From positions 1-64,000 of the forward strand of contig JAFDVO010000022.1 in NCBI GenBank assembly GCA_018268955.1: a stretch of 64,000 nucleotides of DNA, written 5' to 3'. How positions within the stretch are numbered: position 1 is the stretch's first letter; the number at the start of each line of letters is the position of its first letter. The stretch comes from Acidobacteriota bacterium. GTDB taxonomy: Bacteria > Acidobacteriota > Vicinamibacteria > Vicinamibacterales > CAVVIG01. Both the position numbers and the translations under genes were made by a program. The notes beneath the pieces were generated by a model. The model ran no database searches. It saw only the letters and a program-made list of their open reading frames with translations, and had not been told where the DNA came from. Of the stretch, positions 52,443-61,018 are shown piece after piece.

Positions 52443-52829
52443 ATGTCGTTCCTGCTGCGACTGGTGGTGAATGCGGTGGCCCTCTGGGCCGCGACCCGCC
52501 TTGTACCGGGTGTCAGCTACGCGGGTGAGCCGCTGCCGTTCATCGGCGTGGCGCTCATCTTCGGCATCATCAACGCCACCCTCCGCCCGCTGATGAAGCT
52601 CCTGACCTGCCCGCTGATCCTGCTGACGCTTGGCCTGTTCGCGCTGATCGTCAACGGCCTCATGCTCTGGCTGACGAGTTCCATCGCGACGTCGCTCGGC
52701 ATCGGGTTCCACGTCGACGGCTTCTGGCCGGCGTTCTGGGGCGCGCTCGTCGTGAGCATCGTGAGTGCCATCCTGTCGATGGCGTTCAAGTCGGACACGG
52801 AGAACACGATCGTCATCAGCCGCGGCTGA
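52443..52829 (+). CDS. YvlD/phage-holin-4-like membrane protein
   Basis: This 128-residue protein has four hydrophobic helices and matches the COG1950 (YvlD) family, annotated as phage holin superfamily IV. Typical elements are RLVVNAVALWAATRLVPGV at the N-terminus and the central FGIINATLRPLMKLLTCPLI. No phage genes are near, so a housekeeping envelope role is more likely than lysis. GAAGGTGG precedes the ATG, which is 12 nt after the hydrolase gene. Confidence 0.88.
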   Translation: MSFLLRLVVNAVALWAATRLVPGVSYAGEPLPFIGVALIFGIINATLRPLMKLLTCPLILLTLGLFALIVNGLMLWLTSSIATSLGIGFHVDGFWPAFWGALVVSIVSAILSMAFKSDTENTIVISRG

Positions 52830-52834
52830 CGCGT

Positions 52835-54067
52835 TTACAGGAACGCCACCGCGGTTGCCACGCCTGCCGTCAAGGCCATCCACGGCAGGGCGACCCGACG
52901 GAACTCCGGGCCGCCCAGGACCGCGGCCACCGCCAGCTTCATCCAGGAGTTCGCCGCGACGCCGGCGACGACCGCGCGCGCCGCGAGGTGCGCATCGGTG
53001 CCCAGGCGCTCGAGCGTCGCCATCGAATAGGCTAGCGCGTCCATCTCCGCCAGCCCGAGGAGCGCGCCGGAGGTCATCAGGCCGCGGCTGCCGAACGAGA
53101 CGCGCACCCACGCCGTCGCGAACAGGACCACCTGGAAGGCCAGTGCCATCTGAATCGCCGGCAGCAATTGCAGCGGGTTCCCGGTCGCCTGCGGCGTGAC
53201 CGCCGCGCCGTGCGAGTTGCGAACCACGATCAGCGAGATCACGCCCGCGACGAACGGGACGAGCAGGTACCAGACCAGGTCCGAGGCGACACGCAGGTTG
53301 AGCACCGCCATCGCCACCGCGAGGCGCGGATAGAGCATGGTCGAGGCCGCGAGTGTGCCGATTGCCAGCGCCCTCTGCGACTCTGGCTCCAGCCGGCTGA
53401 GCCGGGAGAAGCTGAATGTCACGGCGGTGGAAGAGACGATCCCTCCGAGCAGGCCCGAGAGCGGATACCCGGTGGTGCCGTGTGTCAGGCGTCGTGCGAT
53501 GTAGCCGATGAAGCTGAGGGCGCTGAAGAGCAGCACGACCATCCACAGCGTGCGTGGGCGGAACCCGCCGAGCGGACCGTAAGGGCCTTCCGGCAGCAGC
53601 GGCAGGATCACGGTGGCCATCACGGCGAACCGCACCGCGGCCTTGAGCTCGGTATCATCCAGCCGCTCGACGAGCCTGTGCAGCCTGGACTTCTCCGCGA
53701 GCAGCAGGGCCGTGACCGCGATGATGCCGCTGGTGAGAGCGATCTCCCCGCGGCCCGCGAGCACGCCAGCCGCGATGACGACGAGCGCCGCCATTTCCGT
53801 GGTGGCCTCGACCTCACGTCGGCTTGCCGCGGCATATCCGGTGATGATCAGCGCGCACGCAGCGGCCACCACCGTGATGGCGAGGCCGTTGGCGTCCGCC
53901 GTCGAGAGGTACCCGGCGATCCCCGAGACGCCGCCGAGCAGCGTGAAGGTACGGATGCCACCGAAGCGGGCGTGCGGACCGCTCGCGTGTCCGGAGTGCT
54001 GTCGCTCGACGCCGATCGCTGCACCGCCGAGCGCCGCAACCAGCAGTCCGACGATGTCAGGGTTCAT
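52835..54067 (-). CDS. MgtC/SapB-DUF4010 integral membrane protein
   Basis: This 410-residue protein has about twelve hydrophobic helices. The N-terminal MgtC-like domain (about 5-130) contains GAAIGVERQHSG and RTFTLLGG, and a DUF4010 domain follows (about 170-400, with GGIVSSTAVTFSFSRLS). MgtC proteins are linked to Mg2+ limitation, ATP and phosphate homeostasis. The start at 54067 overlaps the end of the upstream gene by 11 bp. It is the last gene of the six-gene operon running down from 58690. Confidence 0.88.
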   Translation of the reverse strand: MNPDIVGLLVAALGGAAIGVERQHSGHASGPHARFGGIRTFTLLGGVSGIAGYLSTADANGLAITVVAAACALIITGYAAASRREVEATTEMAALVVIAAGVLAGRGEIALTSGIIAVTALLLAEKSRLHRLVERLDDTELKAAVRFAVMATVILPLLPEGPYGPLGGFRPRTLWMVVLLFSALSFIGYIARRLTHGTTGYPLSGLLGGIVSSTAVTFSFSRLSRLEPESQRALAIGTLAASTMLYPRLAVAMAVLNLRVASDLVWYLLVPFVAGVISLIVVRNSHGAAVTPQATGNPLQLLPAIQMALAFQVVLFATAWVRVSFGSRGLMTSGALLGLAEMDALAYSMATLERLGTDAHLAARAVVAGVAANSWMKLAVAAVLGGPEFRRVALPWMALTAGVATAVAFL

Positions 54068-54752
54068 CGCGTCTGCTCCCCGCGAGATCGCGGAAGCGAT
54101 AGAGGTAGCCGATCGAGACGAGAGCCAGGAGTGCCGCGACGGGCCACGAGAACGACCGCCGGCTCGCGCGCACGTCGAGCACGGCACGACCACCATTGGC
54201 GATCAGGTGTGTGTCCAGGACCACCGTGTGGCGCTCCTGCTCCAGCGTGATTCGCTCCTTCTCGTTCTTGCCGTCGCCATCCGTCGTCGTCACCGCATTG
54301 AAGACGTACCGATCGGGCAGCACAACCGACGTCACGTACCGCTCGAATGCCGCGTCCGTCGTGTTGACGAACTCGCGCCGGAGCGTGAGGGCGCCAGCTC
54401 CCTGCCGCCGCGCCGCGTTGGCCAGCGTGTAGCGCACGACGATCGTCCGCCCCGCCGCCGCGGCCGGCATCGCAACGGCGATCTGTCGTCGCGTGCTGTC
54501 CCAGGTCGCGCGTGTGTCGGGATCCTGCGAGTCCGCTACCGACACGTTCTGAGGGGCGCCGCCAATCACGGGCACCCGCACGGCCTCGACGTTCGCCGGC
54601 ACAGCGAACGTCACGCGCACGTCGGCGCTGCCGTTCTCGTCCAGCACGAGCTCTTCACGCACGTTCGTGACCCTCGCCTGCGCGTCGAGGTCTGGCGGCG
54701 ACATCACGACCGGTATGGCGAGCACTGCGGCGAGGGTGAGCCAGCGTCCCAT
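54057..54752 (-). CDS. Signal-peptide, C-terminally anchored beta-rich protein
   Basis: I do not recognise this 231-residue family. It has a signal peptide (about 1-24, ending DLDAQA), a Val/Thr-rich extracytoplasmic part (LVLDENGSADVRVTFAVPAN and TIVVRYTLANAARRQG, resembling an immunoglobulin-like fold), and one C-terminal membrane helix (about 200-218) with a basic tail. It therefore sits on the periplasmic face of the inner membrane. It lies between the DASS transporter and the MgtC gene with 2-nt and overlapping junctions, so it belongs to that system. Confidence 0.75.
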   Translation of the reverse strand: MGRWLTLAAVLAIPVVMSPPDLDAQARVTNVREELVLDENGSADVRVTFAVPANVEAVRVPVIGGAPQNVSVADSQDPDTRATWDSTRRQIAVAMPAAAAGRTIVVRYTLANAARRQGAGALTLRREFVNTTDAAFERYVTSVVLPDRYVFNAVTTTDGDGKNEKERITLEQERHTVVLDTHLIANGGRAVLDVRASRRSFSWPVAALLALVSIGYLYRFRDLAGSRRDEP

Positions 54753-54754
54753 GA

Positions 54755-56314
54755 TCAGAATCCTGGCGTGATGCCGAGCAGCCGGAACCACGTCATGCCG
54801 GCGATTGTGAACAGGACGACGCCGATCGTGGTCATCACGAAGCCGTACTTCAGGTTGTCGAGCACGGAGTACTGGCCGGTGGTGAACAGGATCAGGTTCG
54901 GCTTCGCGCTGATCGGCAGGCCGATCACCCAGTCGATCGTGAAAGCCGCCGGCAGCGCAAGCGACACTGGCGGGAAGCCCAGATGCTTGGCCAGCTCGAT
55001 GACGACCGGCAGCATGATCAGCGTCCGCATCGTCTTGCTGGTGAAGAAGAGGTGCGAATACAGGTTCACCGCGATGACGACAACGTACACCGTCCAGAAG
55101 TTCGGGTGCGGCCCGAAGTTGAGCAGCGCGAACAGCCGCTCGATGGCCCACCCGGCGGCGCCGGTCTGGTCGAGGGCGAGCCCGCCTGCGTAGGCACCGG
55201 CACTGAAGATCATCAGGTGCCACGGAATGTCCGTGTCATTCCACGTGAGCAGGCCGACGCGCGGGGCGAAGGTGATGATGACGCCCAGCATCGCCGCCAT
55301 CACCGGATCGATGCTGAAGCCGAACCATGCGGTGTGGAAGCGGTCAGTCACCCAGAGCAGGACGACGACGGTGAAGATGCCGAGCCCCTTGCGTTCGGCG
55401 GTCGTGAGCGGACCGAGCCGCGCCAATTGCGTGCGGAGCCCCTCGATGCCACCGGGGAGTGACGGCTTCGCTTCGGCATCGCTGACCCGGAACAGCAAGT
55501 GAGGTCCGAGCCACCAGGCGATGAGCATCGCCGCGACCGCAACCGGCAGGTTCGCGAACATCCAGTCGGTGTAGTAGACCCGATGGTCGCCCATCGAAAG
55601 GATGAAGCCGACCGCCAGCAGGTTCGCTGTCGATCCGGTCATGAATCCGGACGACAGGATGTTGATTCCCAGGAGATTCTGGAGGAAGAGGTTGCGCCCG
55701 AAGTTCGTGGGGTTGGCGGCGGTGGAGCGGTAAATCGCCGCCACCACGAGCATCAGCGGGAGCGTCATCACCGCGCGTGCGGCAGTGGCGGGAATGAGCG
55801 GCGCGAGCACCAGCTGCAACAGGACGAATGCCAGCAGCATCGTCGACGCCCGGTTCCCGAACCGGACGAACAGGTGCAGCGCGAGACGACGGGCCAGGTT
55901 GGTCTTTATCAGGATCGTGCTCAGGATGAACGCCATCACGTTCAGCCAGATCACGTCCATGCCGAGGACTGCGAGGACCTTGGTCTCCTCCCACGCGCCT
56001 GTGAAGACGAGCAGCACCATCAGGAGGAGCGACGTCACGTAGGCCGGCACCGGCTCCGCCACCCACCAGGTGATCGCCAGGGCGAAGCAGGCAAGGGCGG
56101 CCTGTGCCGCGGTGGTCAGTCCACCGGGCGTGGGCATGAGATAGAGCAGCCCGAACAGCACGAGCCCCAGCGGGAAGCCCAGATACTCCATCCACCGCTC
56201 TGTTGCGTTCGGCGTCCGCGCGGGGATGGACGACAGCTTCTGTTTGTCGAGGTCGACCAGGACGTCGACCTCGGCATCAGCGGCGGGCAGCGCTGCGGCG
56301 GCCGCGGGGTTCAT
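54755..56314 (-). CDS. DASS/SLC13-family anion transporter
   Basis: This 519-residue transporter has about eleven helices. Family substrate/sodium-site motifs are visible: FMTGSTANLLAVG (first SNT-like motif, about 225) and LPISAKPNLILFTTGQYS (second, about 478). The family moves di- and tricarboxylates, sulfate or phosphate, usually with Na+. A ~40-residue polar N-terminal extension is present. In this operon, with an OprP/O porin and CYTH proteins, a phosphate-type anion is plausible but unproven. It starts 4 nt after the CYTH gene. Confidence 0.92.
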   Translation of the reverse strand: MNPAAAAALPAADAEVDVLVDLDKQKLSSIPARTPNATERWMEYLGFPLGLVLFGLLYLMPTPGGLTTAAQAALACFALAITWWVAEPVPAYVTSLLLMVLLVFTGAWEETKVLAVLGMDVIWLNVMAFILSTILIKTNLARRLALHLFVRFGNRASTMLLAFVLLQLVLAPLIPATAARAVMTLPLMLVVAAIYRSTAANPTNFGRNLFLQNLLGINILSSGFMTGSTANLLAVGFILSMGDHRVYYTDWMFANLPVAVAAMLIAWWLGPHLLFRVSDAEAKPSLPGGIEGLRTQLARLGPLTTAERKGLGIFTVVVLLWVTDRFHTAWFGFSIDPVMAAMLGVIITFAPRVGLLTWNDTDIPWHLMIFSAGAYAGGLALDQTGAAGWAIERLFALLNFGPHPNFWTVYVVVIAVNLYSHLFFTSKTMRTLIMLPVVIELAKHLGFPPVSLALPAAFTIDWVIGLPISAKPNLILFTTGQYSVLDNLKYGFVMTTIGVVLFTIAGMTWFRLLGITPGF

Positions 56315-56318
56315 GTCG

Positions 56319-56783
56319 TCACCAGCGACTGAAGGGGTGCTGAATCAGGTTCGCGTTGAAGTAGCGTGTGTCGCCGGAGACCTCCTCGCCGACCCACGAT
56401 GGCCGCTCGAACACGGTGTTCGCATCAGGCAGCTCGATCTCGGCGACGACCAGGCCTTCGTTCTCTTCGTGGAACTGGTCGACTTCCCACGTGAACCCAC
56501 CAACGGGAATCCGGTACCGTGTCTTCGCGATCAGCGGGCGCTCACACACCCTGTCCAGCATGGCCGTCGCGTCGTCGAACGGAATCGGGTACTCGAATTC
56601 CAGTCGGGTCACGCCGGTGGTGAGCCCCTTGATGGTCAGGAACGCGTCGGGGCCTGCCGTCCGGACCCGTACGACGCGCTCCTTTGCCGACGAGAGGTAG
56701 CCCTGGCGATAGAGCACTCCTTCCGCCAGGGACTGCCACTCGGTGCCAACAACGAGGAACTTGCGTTCGATTTCGACCGCCAT
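56319..56783 (-). CDS. CYTH-domain (triphosphate tunnel metalloenzyme) protein
   Basis: This 154-residue protein begins MAVEIERKFLV, the ExExK signature of the CYTH fold. Alternating charged strands follow (RVVRVRT, AFLTIKG, RLEFEYPIP, TRYRIP, WEVDQFHEENEGLVVAEIELP). These line a cationic and metal-binding tunnel for triphosphate groups. Single-domain bacterial CYTH proteins are often inorganic tripolyphosphatases or act on ThTP or long polyphosphate. It lies 2 nt downstream of the porin gene and 4 nt upstream of the DASS gene. Confidence 0.93.
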   Translation of the reverse strand: MAVEIERKFLVVGTEWQSLAEGVLYRQGYLSSAKERVVRVRTAGPDAFLTIKGLTTGVTRLEFEYPIPFDDATAMLDRVCERPLIAKTRYRIPVGGFTWEVDQFHEENEGLVVAEIELPDANTVFERPSWVGEEVSGDTRYFNANLIQHPFSRW

Positions 56784-56785
56784 GA

Positions 56786-58072
56786 TCAGAAGATCAGCTG
56801 CAGGCGGGCCTGCAGTACGTTGAAGTCGTCATTGACCTTGCCGTTGTAGCCCTTGGCGTACTGGTCGCTGTTCACGAACGCGTAGTTCACCATCAGGCGG
56901 ACGTTCGGGTTGAAGTACCAGTTGGTGCCAAACGTCGTGATCTCCTGCTTGCCGCCGAAGATGTTTGCCGACGGGTCGTTGAGGTCGGCGGTGCTGTAGC
57001 GGGCGAGAAGCTCGAGTGCGCCGCGGCGGTGCTTCGGCAGCACGCGATCGAACTCGCCAGCCACCGGGTCGTAGGGGCGGTGCTCACCGGTCGGGAACCA
57101 GCTGACGAACGTATACCAGCCGTCGAAGGTCGGCTCGGCCAGCGTATCGAGCGTCCGCTTGTAGGTCGCCTTGTTGTATTCACCCTGCACGGAGAAGGGG
57201 CCGGCCGTCGCCGCCAGTTCCAGACCGAGCAGGTTCTGGTGATCGATGTTCGACATCTTGCCCGTGTCGATGTAGCGCAGCCGGTTGACGTGCGTCTCAG
57301 GCCGCGCGCGCAGCCGCATCTGATTCGCGTCCGAGAGGTTGGCGCTGGTGGCCGCGTTCGGGGTGGTGTAGCTCGCCGCCGCGCCGACGTGGACCAGCAT
57401 GTTCCTGGTCTTGACCGGAAGAGCGGTCACGCGGCCGGTGAAGCCGTACCCCTGATCGGCGCCGGTGCTGTCGGCGGCGCCGAGCGCCTGCCCGAACAGC
57501 CCGCCGGTCGCCTGCCAGCGGCTGCCCCACGTGCTGTAGGCGACGCCCAGGTGCCGATCGGGCGAGAAGTTGTCGATCATCGAGCGCTCCATGAAGGAGA
57601 TGTAGCGCGACGAGGTCAGCGTCTCCAGGCCGAACGGCTCCTTGAAGTTGCCGATCTTGATCGTGGAGTGCGGAATGCCGGTGTAGCCGAGCCACATGTC
57701 CTTGATCTCGATCGTGCCGTCGGAGATGTACTCGACGTCGAACTGCGACGCCCAGGTCTTCCACAGCATCATGTTCAGCGCGAAGCGCGCGCGTCGGACT
57801 TCGGCGCCATTCGACATCGCGTTGTCACTGTTCGAATACATGGCCGCGTCGAGCATCATGCGGCCGTCGAGCCACCACGCGAAGCGGTCGTCCGGGGTCT
57901 TCGCGATGAGGAACCCGGCACCGTGGAACAGGTCAACCGGCTCGTTCGAAACCACTGCGGCGGCTGACGGGTCGGTCTGCTCGGTTGCGTTCGGCTGGGC
58001 GAGGAGTGCGCCCGGCGTCAGTGAGATGGCCAGAGCGAGGAACGGTGAAGCCAGACGGGTGTGGGGATACAT
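56786..58072 (-). CDS. OprO/OprP-family phosphate-selective porin
   Basis: This 428-residue outer-membrane protein has a signal peptide (about 1-25, GALLAQ) and ends in the terminal Phe of beta-barrels (QARLQLIF). Porin_O_P signatures include RRARFALNMMLWKTWASQFDVEY, KDMWLGYTG, IKIGNFKEPFGLETLTSSRYISFMER and RHLGVAYSTW. OprP and OprO favour phosphate and pyrophosphate/polyphosphate in Pseudomonas. GGGAGG lies upstream of the ATG. It is the second gene of the operon. Confidence 0.9.
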   Translation of the reverse strand: MYPHTRLASPFLALAISLTPGALLAQPNATEQTDPSAAAVVSNEPVDLFHGAGFLIAKTPDDRFAWWLDGRMMLDAAMYSNSDNAMSNGAEVRRARFALNMMLWKTWASQFDVEYISDGTIEIKDMWLGYTGIPHSTIKIGNFKEPFGLETLTSSRYISFMERSMIDNFSPDRHLGVAYSTWGSRWQATGGLFGQALGAADSTGADQGYGFTGRVTALPVKTRNMLVHVGAAASYTTPNAATSANLSDANQMRLRARPETHVNRLRYIDTGKMSNIDHQNLLGLELAATAGPFSVQGEYNKATYKRTLDTLAEPTFDGWYTFVSWFPTGEHRPYDPVAGEFDRVLPKHRRGALELLARYSTADLNDPSANIFGGKQEITTFGTNWYFNPNVRLMVNYAFVNSDQYAKGYNGKVNDDFNVLQARLQLIF

Positions 58073-58102
58073 GATGGCGCCCTCCCCGGGCGCTGTCGCC
58101 CC

Positions 58103-58690
58103 TCAGCGAAGCGAGCCAGTGAGGTGCTGCTTCAGGGCCTTGACGTAGTTCGTGTTCTCGGTGCGGTCGAATCCGTAGCGGAGGACGAGCGTCCACAGCC
58201 CCTTCCGGTCGGTGGACTCGATGGCGACTGTCTTGATTGGGTGTCCATCGAAGGTCAGCTCCGCGATCTCGAGCAGGCAGCCCTCGACATCCGCCCCCCG
58301 GCGGGCCTTGGTGACGCGCACGACCTGCACGTCCGGCACCTGCGCGGCGATGCCGTCGACGAACGCGTCGACTGACGATGCGGCCCAGGGGGCTGACGGG
58401 TGGGGAATGCGCCACGCATTCGCGATGCGCGCCAGATCAGAGGCGGTGAGGGGGAATGCAGCCTTCAGGACGGGACGCCAGAGTTCGAGACCCTGATCGT
58501 CGCGCTGCTCGAGCAACTTGACGTCGAGCAGGTTGTCGCGAATCTTCGTGTTCGCGTCGGAGTGACGAGAGACGAGGTACGTTTCGACGCTGTGACGGGC
58601 GGGTCCGAGGACCGGCTGCAGTTGATCTTCGGCGACGCCGAACGATGCCCCGAACGTTCGCCACTCCCAGCGGGGAATGACGGGAGCCAT
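58103..58690 (-). CDS. CYTH/TTM-like protein, divergent
   Basis: I recognise this 195-residue protein only at superfamily level. It begins PRWEWRTFG, then has alternating basic and acidic strands (ETYLVSRHSDANTKIRDNLLDVKLLEQ, ELWRPVLKAAFPL, VQVVRVTKARRGADVEGCLLEIAELTFDGHPIKTVAIE) and a helical C-terminus. The EWR start and KIRD/DVKL strands are like those of triphosphate tunnel folds. It is the first gene of the six-gene operon, 30 bp before the porin. A second, canonical CYTH gene in the same operon supports the assignment. Confidence 0.6.
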   Translation of the reverse strand: MAPVIPRWEWRTFGASFGVAEDQLQPVLGPARHSVETYLVSRHSDANTKIRDNLLDVKLLEQRDDQGLELWRPVLKAAFPLTASDLARIANAWRIPHPSAPWAASSVDAFVDGIAAQVPDVQVVRVTKARRGADVEGCLLEIAELTFDGHPIKTVAIESTDRKGLWTLVLRYGFDRTENTNYVKALKQHLTGSLR

Positions 58691-58865
58691 GCACGACGTG
58701 TACGCATCAACGATGCCGACACATCTGTAGGCTAGGCCCCGCGTATCTCCGTGCTATTCCAAGCATTTGTCCTGGCTTTGCCTGCGGTGGCAGGTGCCGG
58801 GCCGGCGAACGTCCGCCACTCGCCGGAAATCCGGCGACGCGCGCCGCCGCTTTTGCGAACGCCGA

Positions 58866-60907: not shown

Positions 60908-61018
60908 GACTTCAGAAGAGGAATTCAGAAGATACAGGGTGGAGGTCGAAGGGCGGGGCCGCCGTCTCCAACCTCCAACCTCCAACCTCCAACCTCCAAC
61001 CTCCAACCTCCAACCTCC
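60886..61018. repeat. GACGTAAGACGTAAG array and CCTCCAACCTCCAACC array
   Basis: Positions 60888-60907 hold two and a half 8-nt GACGTAA units, overlapping the 3' end of the upstream coding region. Positions 60966-61018 hold seven near-perfect CCTCCAA heptamers, the most regular tandem repeat in the window. The first type is related to the era-recO array at 18629. Confidence 0.95.

Follow-up and report, generated by a model that had tools for sequence, protein, structure and literature searches.

Background

According to the general view, polyphosphate is broken down outside the cell and phosphate alone is imported. The outer-membrane porins OprP and OprO owe their selectivity for phosphate or polyphosphate to an arginine ladder and a lysine cluster, and we know of no natural role for the specific triphosphatases. 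Here, a six-gene operon is described from an Acidobacteriota bacterium of the order Vicinamibacterales (assembly GCA_018268955.1), which lies at 52835..58690 on the minus strand of a 64,000-nucleotide stretch (hereafter, the window), itself part of a 198-kb contig (JAFDVO010000022.1) of a 4.77-Mb genome. We hold, with slightly more belief than doubt, that this operon represents one form of a modular and widespread system by which cells acquire inorganic phosphoanhydrides, namely inorganic triphosphate (PPPi) and/or short polyphosphate.

NeuTTM, a triphosphate tunnel metalloenzyme (TTM), is a specific inorganic triphosphatase for which a Tyr28/Lys52 dyad has been proposed, and no significant PPPi was detectable in extracts of E. 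coli or brain (PMC3440374). Yeast Pho90, which belongs to the DASS/SLC13 fold family, performs Na+-driven phosphate transport (PMC13394699).

The operon and its proposed function

The six open reading frames are all present, and the junctions reported by the initial annotation, with gaps of 30, 2, 4 and 2 bp followed by an 11-bp overlap, proved exact on re-examination. Its domain calls for the porin, the CYTH protein, the DASS carrier and the MgtC/DUF4010 protein likewise stand, given that the Pfam matches of all four exceed the family cut-offs. The core of the cassette is W1 (58103..58690), a cytosolic protein of 195 aa whose family is unannotated (motif PRWEWRTFG) and which is predicted to form a TTM barrel. 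It is followed by a Porin_O_P outer-membrane porin (56786..58072; 428 aa, with a signal-like N-terminus), which matches PF07396 over nearly its full length with 197 bits, by the canonical CYTH protein W3 (56319..56783; 154 aa, Pfam CYTH 53.6 bits), and by the inner-membrane anion carrier W4 of the DASS family (54755..56314; Na_sulph_symp 223.5 bits).

In the route proposed here, the porin would pass the polyanion across the outer membrane, and the DASS carrier, with its lysine- and arginine-rich substrate site, or TctABC in other versions, would carry it over the inner membrane, perhaps while moving phosphate or some other anion the opposite way. The cytosolic CYTH enzyme, or elsewhere an exopolyphosphatase (PPX), would then cleave the chain to phosphate and pyrophosphate, and W1, as a TTM-fold partner, would bind the phosphate chain and either deliver it to the hydrolase or control that enzyme. 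The PiT/DUF47 pair found in many versions would deal with the phosphate that is produced or exchanged, with W5 and the MgtC protein as accessories. We infer what is transported, in which direction and by what mode of exchange, as well as the function of W1; a phosphoanhydride substrate is favoured because of the fusion of W1 to PPX, the exchange of PPX for CYTH, the presence of PiT/DUF47 and a secreted pyrophosphatase. An outer-to-inner-membrane route with processing of a polyphosphate-type compound had been suggested from the start, and it is supported here with an inferred substrate, with the exception that the MgtC and membrane-anchored proteins are demoted from the core to accessories.

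Distribution of the cassette

Gene content, conservation, folds, motifs and the two replacements (PPX for CYTH, TctABC for DASS) were established directly. A scan of genome contigs with W1 alone returned at least 575 relatives, the best 80 of which were used as loci (12.4 kb on average, labelled here with L numbers); these are the nearest to the query, and their proportions are therefore not those of the whole W1 family. Neighbours were counted with profiles that were built from the neighbour clusters and named through Pfam. Either a CYTH (32 loci) or a PPX gene (47) accompanies W1, never both, and the one locus with neither lies at a contig end. The carriers behave similarly, with DASS in 26 loci, TctC in 27 and TctA in 24, and no locus combining DASS with Tct, and the other recurrent neighbours are PiT (30), DUF47 (31), Porin_O_P (26) and a PhnD-type binding protein (15). 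Genomes of the window's order carry about one PiT gene and two DASS genes each, so that chance would yield roughly 0.2 loci with PiT and 0.4 with DASS; the association of W1 with both is far beyond chance.

By their record titles, the 80 loci belong to at least 15 named phyla, although not every module is found in every phylum. The neighbourhood is thus conserved well past close relatives, as the initial annotation had required of a real system, with CYTH/PPX, DASS/TctABC, PiT, the porin and W1 recurring across at least 15 phyla. Searches with the window proteins (tblastn) showed that the porin, CYTH, DASS and W1 also occur as a group in further genomes of the order, and a Citrobacter freundii plasmid carries a LysR gene followed by CYTH, W1 and DASS, a cassette with no near copy in the E. 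coli genomes or other plasmids searched.

Within the Acidobacteriota, W1 was present in 23 of the 396 genomes sampled. Every one of the 14 loci fetched from this phylum search that were neither fused nor distant has the porin and CYTH, and 13 have DASS, the remaining locus (L072) having TctC and TctA instead. In many loci, the PhnD-type binding protein stands with a kinase and a regulator, divergent from W1. No PPK1 was found near W1 using the window genome's own polyphosphate kinase (PPK) as the query; elsewhere, that genome encodes PPK, two PPX-type proteins and PiT.

Exchange of CYTH for PPX

Triphosphatases and exopolyphosphatases share the splitting of inorganic phosphoanhydrides, and the exchange between them has occurred repeatedly, given that the distribution of the two partners on the W1 tree needs five changes, at least three of which fall on supported branches. 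Locus L151, for example, lies inside a CYTH-DASS clade and has PPX and TctCA, with PhnD, PiT/DUF47 and the porin retained, and L084 has the order W1-PPX-DASS. A carrier is present in 23 of the 31 non-fused PPX loci.

Sixteen loci, mostly of Pseudomonadota, encode W1 and a PPX domain as a single fused protein; these have neither PiT nor porin, and a DASS match is found in L155 only. A gene of approximately 290 aa adjoins 14 of these 16 fusions (L107, L108, L113, L119, L134, L138, L015 and others), and its product has an N-terminus rich in Ala, Lys and Pro and a weak similarity to CYTH.

W1, a TTM-fold protein outside the CYTH family

Searches of Pfam, NCBIfam and the PDB with the W1 sequence returned no match. 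Its AlphaFold2 model, made with 54 relatives, is of high quality (pLDDT 92.9, pTM 0.88), and in Foldseek it is matched foremost by thiamine triphosphatases, AtTTM3, SaTTM and other TTM proteins (probability 1.00, E down to 5e-7), with a VIA-align Z of 12.8 over 152 residues at an rmsd of 3.2. On this model, W1 has the TTM fold, an eight-stranded beta-barrel tunnel, an assignment that comes from structure prediction, as the sequence searches gave nothing usable. The description of the 195-aa protein as CYTH-like is thus borne out by the predicted barrel and not by sequence, and the possibility that it would not fold as a TTM protein, raised earlier as a reason to abandon the system, failed once it was modelled.

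The invariant charged residues of the family (R7, E9, R11, K49, R51, D56, K58, K128, R130, E141 and E158) would sit on strands of the model with a two-residue spacing, as if lining a basic and acidic tunnel. The N-terminal ExExK motif is absent, and an invariant RxExR (R7, E9, R11) stands in its place. The CYTH model PF01928 does not match W1, and it matches only 2 of the 54 relatives, at a best E of 0.01. Because RxExR replaces ExExK and hhalign finds no link to CYTH, W1 is treated as a TTM-fold family of its own, the active site of which may bind a phosphate chain without cutting it.

Variation within the family was also observed. The genomes of L061-L064 and L074 carry a second W1 gene; one copy is without several of the basic residues that are otherwise invariant, and two MgtC/DUF4010 genes are present in most of these genomes. 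Distant relatives in L067, L068, L073 and L017 differ from the cassette W1 proteins by small insertions and have no cassette gene nearby.

The DASS carrier and the CYTH enzyme

W4 scores 215.9 bits on the DASS family model TIGR00785 ('dass'), above the cut-off of 198.6, and its substrate motifs are ATA (176-178), SKTMR (426-430) and AKP (470-472), the last of which is SKP in most relatives. In all of the cassette DASS proteins, the SNT-type motifs are replaced by AT(T/A/S) and by SKT, with R430 after it, and a further lysine, K471, lies in the second hairpin, so that the residues gained are K427, R430 and K471. None of the 33 comparison carriers, which include CitT, TtdT and LaINDY, has SKT, and in nearly all of them one half or both retain SNT or a motif close to it. 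The nearest PDB entries are dicarboxylate exchangers, and yeast Pho90 is a distant profile match. In the tree, the cassette proteins form a single separate clade with a support of 1.0 and without the SNT motifs, rather than clustering among the dicarboxylate carriers, which had been named as an outcome that would count against the initial annotation.

Plasmids of Klebsiella and Macrococcus encode a sister clade, which also has SKT and phosphatase-family genes as neighbours. In L027 (5962-8098, Klebsiella sp. PL-2018) and L028 (4923-7614, Macrococcus plasmid), a LysR gene and an SKT-type DASS gene precede one for a histidine phosphatase or PGM-like metalloenzyme, and these carriers probably transport a phosphorylated compound. 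The more positive site and the phosphatase neighbours together suggest that the substrate of the cassette DASS also bears phosphate. In LaINDY, a Na+-independent exchanger, positive residues take the place of Na+ (PMC13394699). R180 and R430 of the cassette proteins align with the R and H beside the LaINDY motifs, and an exchange mode would be plausible for the cassette DASS because positive residues flank the same motifs in both.

The only PDB profile matches of W3 at E<=1e-3 are the NeuTTM structures (2fbl/3typ), to which the cassette CYTHs align along their length with the Tyr/Lys dyad kept. ExExK (E4, E6, K8), Y29 and K52 are invariant across 30 of these proteins. With its match to the CYTH model, its ExExK and its Tyr/Lys dyad, W3 has the sequence features of a NeuTTM-like enzyme and is a putative inorganic triphosphatase.

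Weighing the alternatives

Several observations weigh against the acquisition of phosphoanhydrides. We know of no DASS or TctABC carrier that moves PPPi or polyphosphate, and the characterised DASS members carry carboxylates, sulfate or orthophosphate. The PhnD-type sensors suggest phosphonate or phosphite equally with polyphosphate, Porin_O_P proteins may carry other anions, and hhalign gives the link between W1 and CYTH a probability of 0.4%. The fused loci, having no PiT or porin, may mean that W1 itself works in internal polyphosphate metabolism; such transport-less fusions favour an internal use of W1, whereas the porin and the secreted pyrophosphatase favour an external substrate. In a rival explanation, DASS moves inorganic phosphate (Pi), PiT and the porin do the same, and W1 acts with CYTH or PPX on polyphosphate made by the cell. 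Pho90 provides a precedent (PMC13394699) and a distant profile match to the cassette DASS, PiT and DUF47 are Pi-type genes, importers are missing from the fused W1-PPX loci, and both PPK and PPX are encoded in the window genome itself. This explanation is nevertheless considered unlikely, though it is the strongest of the rivals, as three Pi routes within one operon would be redundant, NeuTTM-like CYTHs prefer PPPi over long polyphosphate, the TctABC and ABC substitutes take up larger anions, the search of the cassettes for PPK1 was negative, and the secreted pyrophosphatase and porin point outward.

The substrate could also be a phosphorylated organic anion, such as a phosphonate, a phosphorylated acid or a nucleotide-like triphosphate, which CYTH or PPX would dephosphorylate after entry. 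This would suit the PhnD-type sensor proteins and LysR regulators, the SBP_bac_6 ABC importer that adjoins W1-CYTH in L126, and the histidine phosphatase and PGM-like metalloenzyme beside the sister DASS clade, but inorganic chains are the substrates of PPX and family I pyrophosphatase, the NeuTTM-type CYTH is PPPi-specific, and the neighbour clusters contain no recurrent enzyme for an organic moiety, which makes it improbable. Ordinary uptake of di- or tricarboxylates, with DASS/TctABC as a chance neighbour of phosphate genes and W1 with CYTH/PPX as a separate regulatory pair, is very improbable: DASS and TctABC are classically carboxylate carriers, and dicarboxylate exchangers are the closest PDB entries, yet the SNT carboxylate motifs are missing from the cassette DASS, which occupies its own clade, no carbon-metabolism genes recur in the neighbourhood, and the co-occurrence of PiT, PPX/CYTH and the porin is repeated in many phyla. 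The acquisition of phosphoanhydrides is thus preferred here. Its most specific form, a dedicated bacterial importer of PPPi or short polyphosphate, in which DASS or TctABC, perhaps by PPPi/Pi exchange, brings in the chain and a new TTM-fold protein passes it on to a triphosphatase or exopolyphosphatase, is advanced tentatively, as a serious candidate that we doubt somewhat more than we believe.

Accessory genes and other features of the region

W5 (54057..54752, minus strand; 231 aa) has a signal-like N-terminal segment, and its AlphaFold2 model (pLDDT 77.9) predicts a beta-sandwich and one C-terminal transmembrane helix. The predicted fold resembles the beta-sandwiches of aminopeptidases and ribophorin, which gives little functional information, and relatives lie directly downstream of DASS in L018, L060, L074, L081, L089, L090 and L098. 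W6 (52835..54067, minus strand; PF13194 153.6 bits, PF02308 40.6 bits) is an MgtC and DUF4010 membrane protein, and such genes also adjoin the cassette in L024, L060-L064 and L074, all within the window's phylum. A core Mg/phosphate role for MgtC was dropped, there being no match in the 80 loci and relatives in the same phylum only.

In several Acidobacteriota loci, a family I inorganic pyrophosphatase with a signal-like N-terminus is encoded near the porin. A signal-peptide protein with a weak similarity to CYTH (E 0.02), possibly a TTM protein of the periplasm, is encoded near the cassette in 7 of the 32 CYTH loci (L130, L132, L137, L145, L146, L154, L063). Cassettes of the Ignavibacteria type (L077, L085, L086, L093, L096, L098) are followed by genes for lamin-tail-domain proteins, and most also have an SdiA-regulated/phytase-like protein.

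The operon promoter probably lies in the gap upstream of W1 (58691..58865, minus strand), in which no sigma-70 match was found, and a search of the operon returned no promoter, terminator or RNA family. A phage holin 4_2 family gene (PF04020) on the plus strand (52443-52829) converges with the end of the operon, and a perfect tandem repeat of the 7-bp unit CTCCAAC (7.6 copies) occupies 60966-61018.

Comparison with known systems

No description of this gene combination was found in the open-access literature, to which the search was directed, subscription papers being outside its scope. Known families make up the cassette with the exception of W1, and the system is new to us. It would bring hundreds of proteins of an unannotated family into the TTM superfamily, and a cassette that joins triphosphatases to dedicated transport in at least 15 phyla would, if this is true, explain such enzymes. 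It would also be the first inner-membrane importer of phosphoanhydrides known to us and an untested route of the phosphorus cycle in soils and sediments, suggesting that many bacteria have an undescribed means of importing and exploiting inorganic tri- or polyphosphate.

The cassette CYTHs have the full-length alignment, ExExK and Tyr/Lys dyad in common with NeuTTM (Nitrosomonas europaea NE1496), which was characterised as an enzyme rather than as a member of an uptake cassette. W4 belongs to the same family (TIGR00785) as LaINDY, CitT and TtdT of E. coli and the chloroplast DiT1, but differs from them in the replacement of SNT (by A-T-A and S-K-T), in its extra invariant lysines and in its separate clade. 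The window porin belongs to the Pfam family of OprP and OprO (PF07396) and differs in sharing an operon with TTM proteins and DASS. W1 has the TTM fold in common with ThTPase, AtTTM3, SaTTM and YgiF, but it is missed by the CYTH model, has RxExR for ExExK, and represents an unannotated family.

At the level of a system, a parallel is found in yeast phosphate homeostasis, with DASS phosphate carriers such as Pho90 and with VTC, which likewise brings together a DASS-fold carrier and a TTM protein around inorganic phosphate and polyphosphate. That system is eukaryotic and SPX-regulated, its TTM protein, VTC, is a polymerase that makes polyphosphate, and it has no porin, PiT or PPX cassette such as those that accompany W1 in bacteria.

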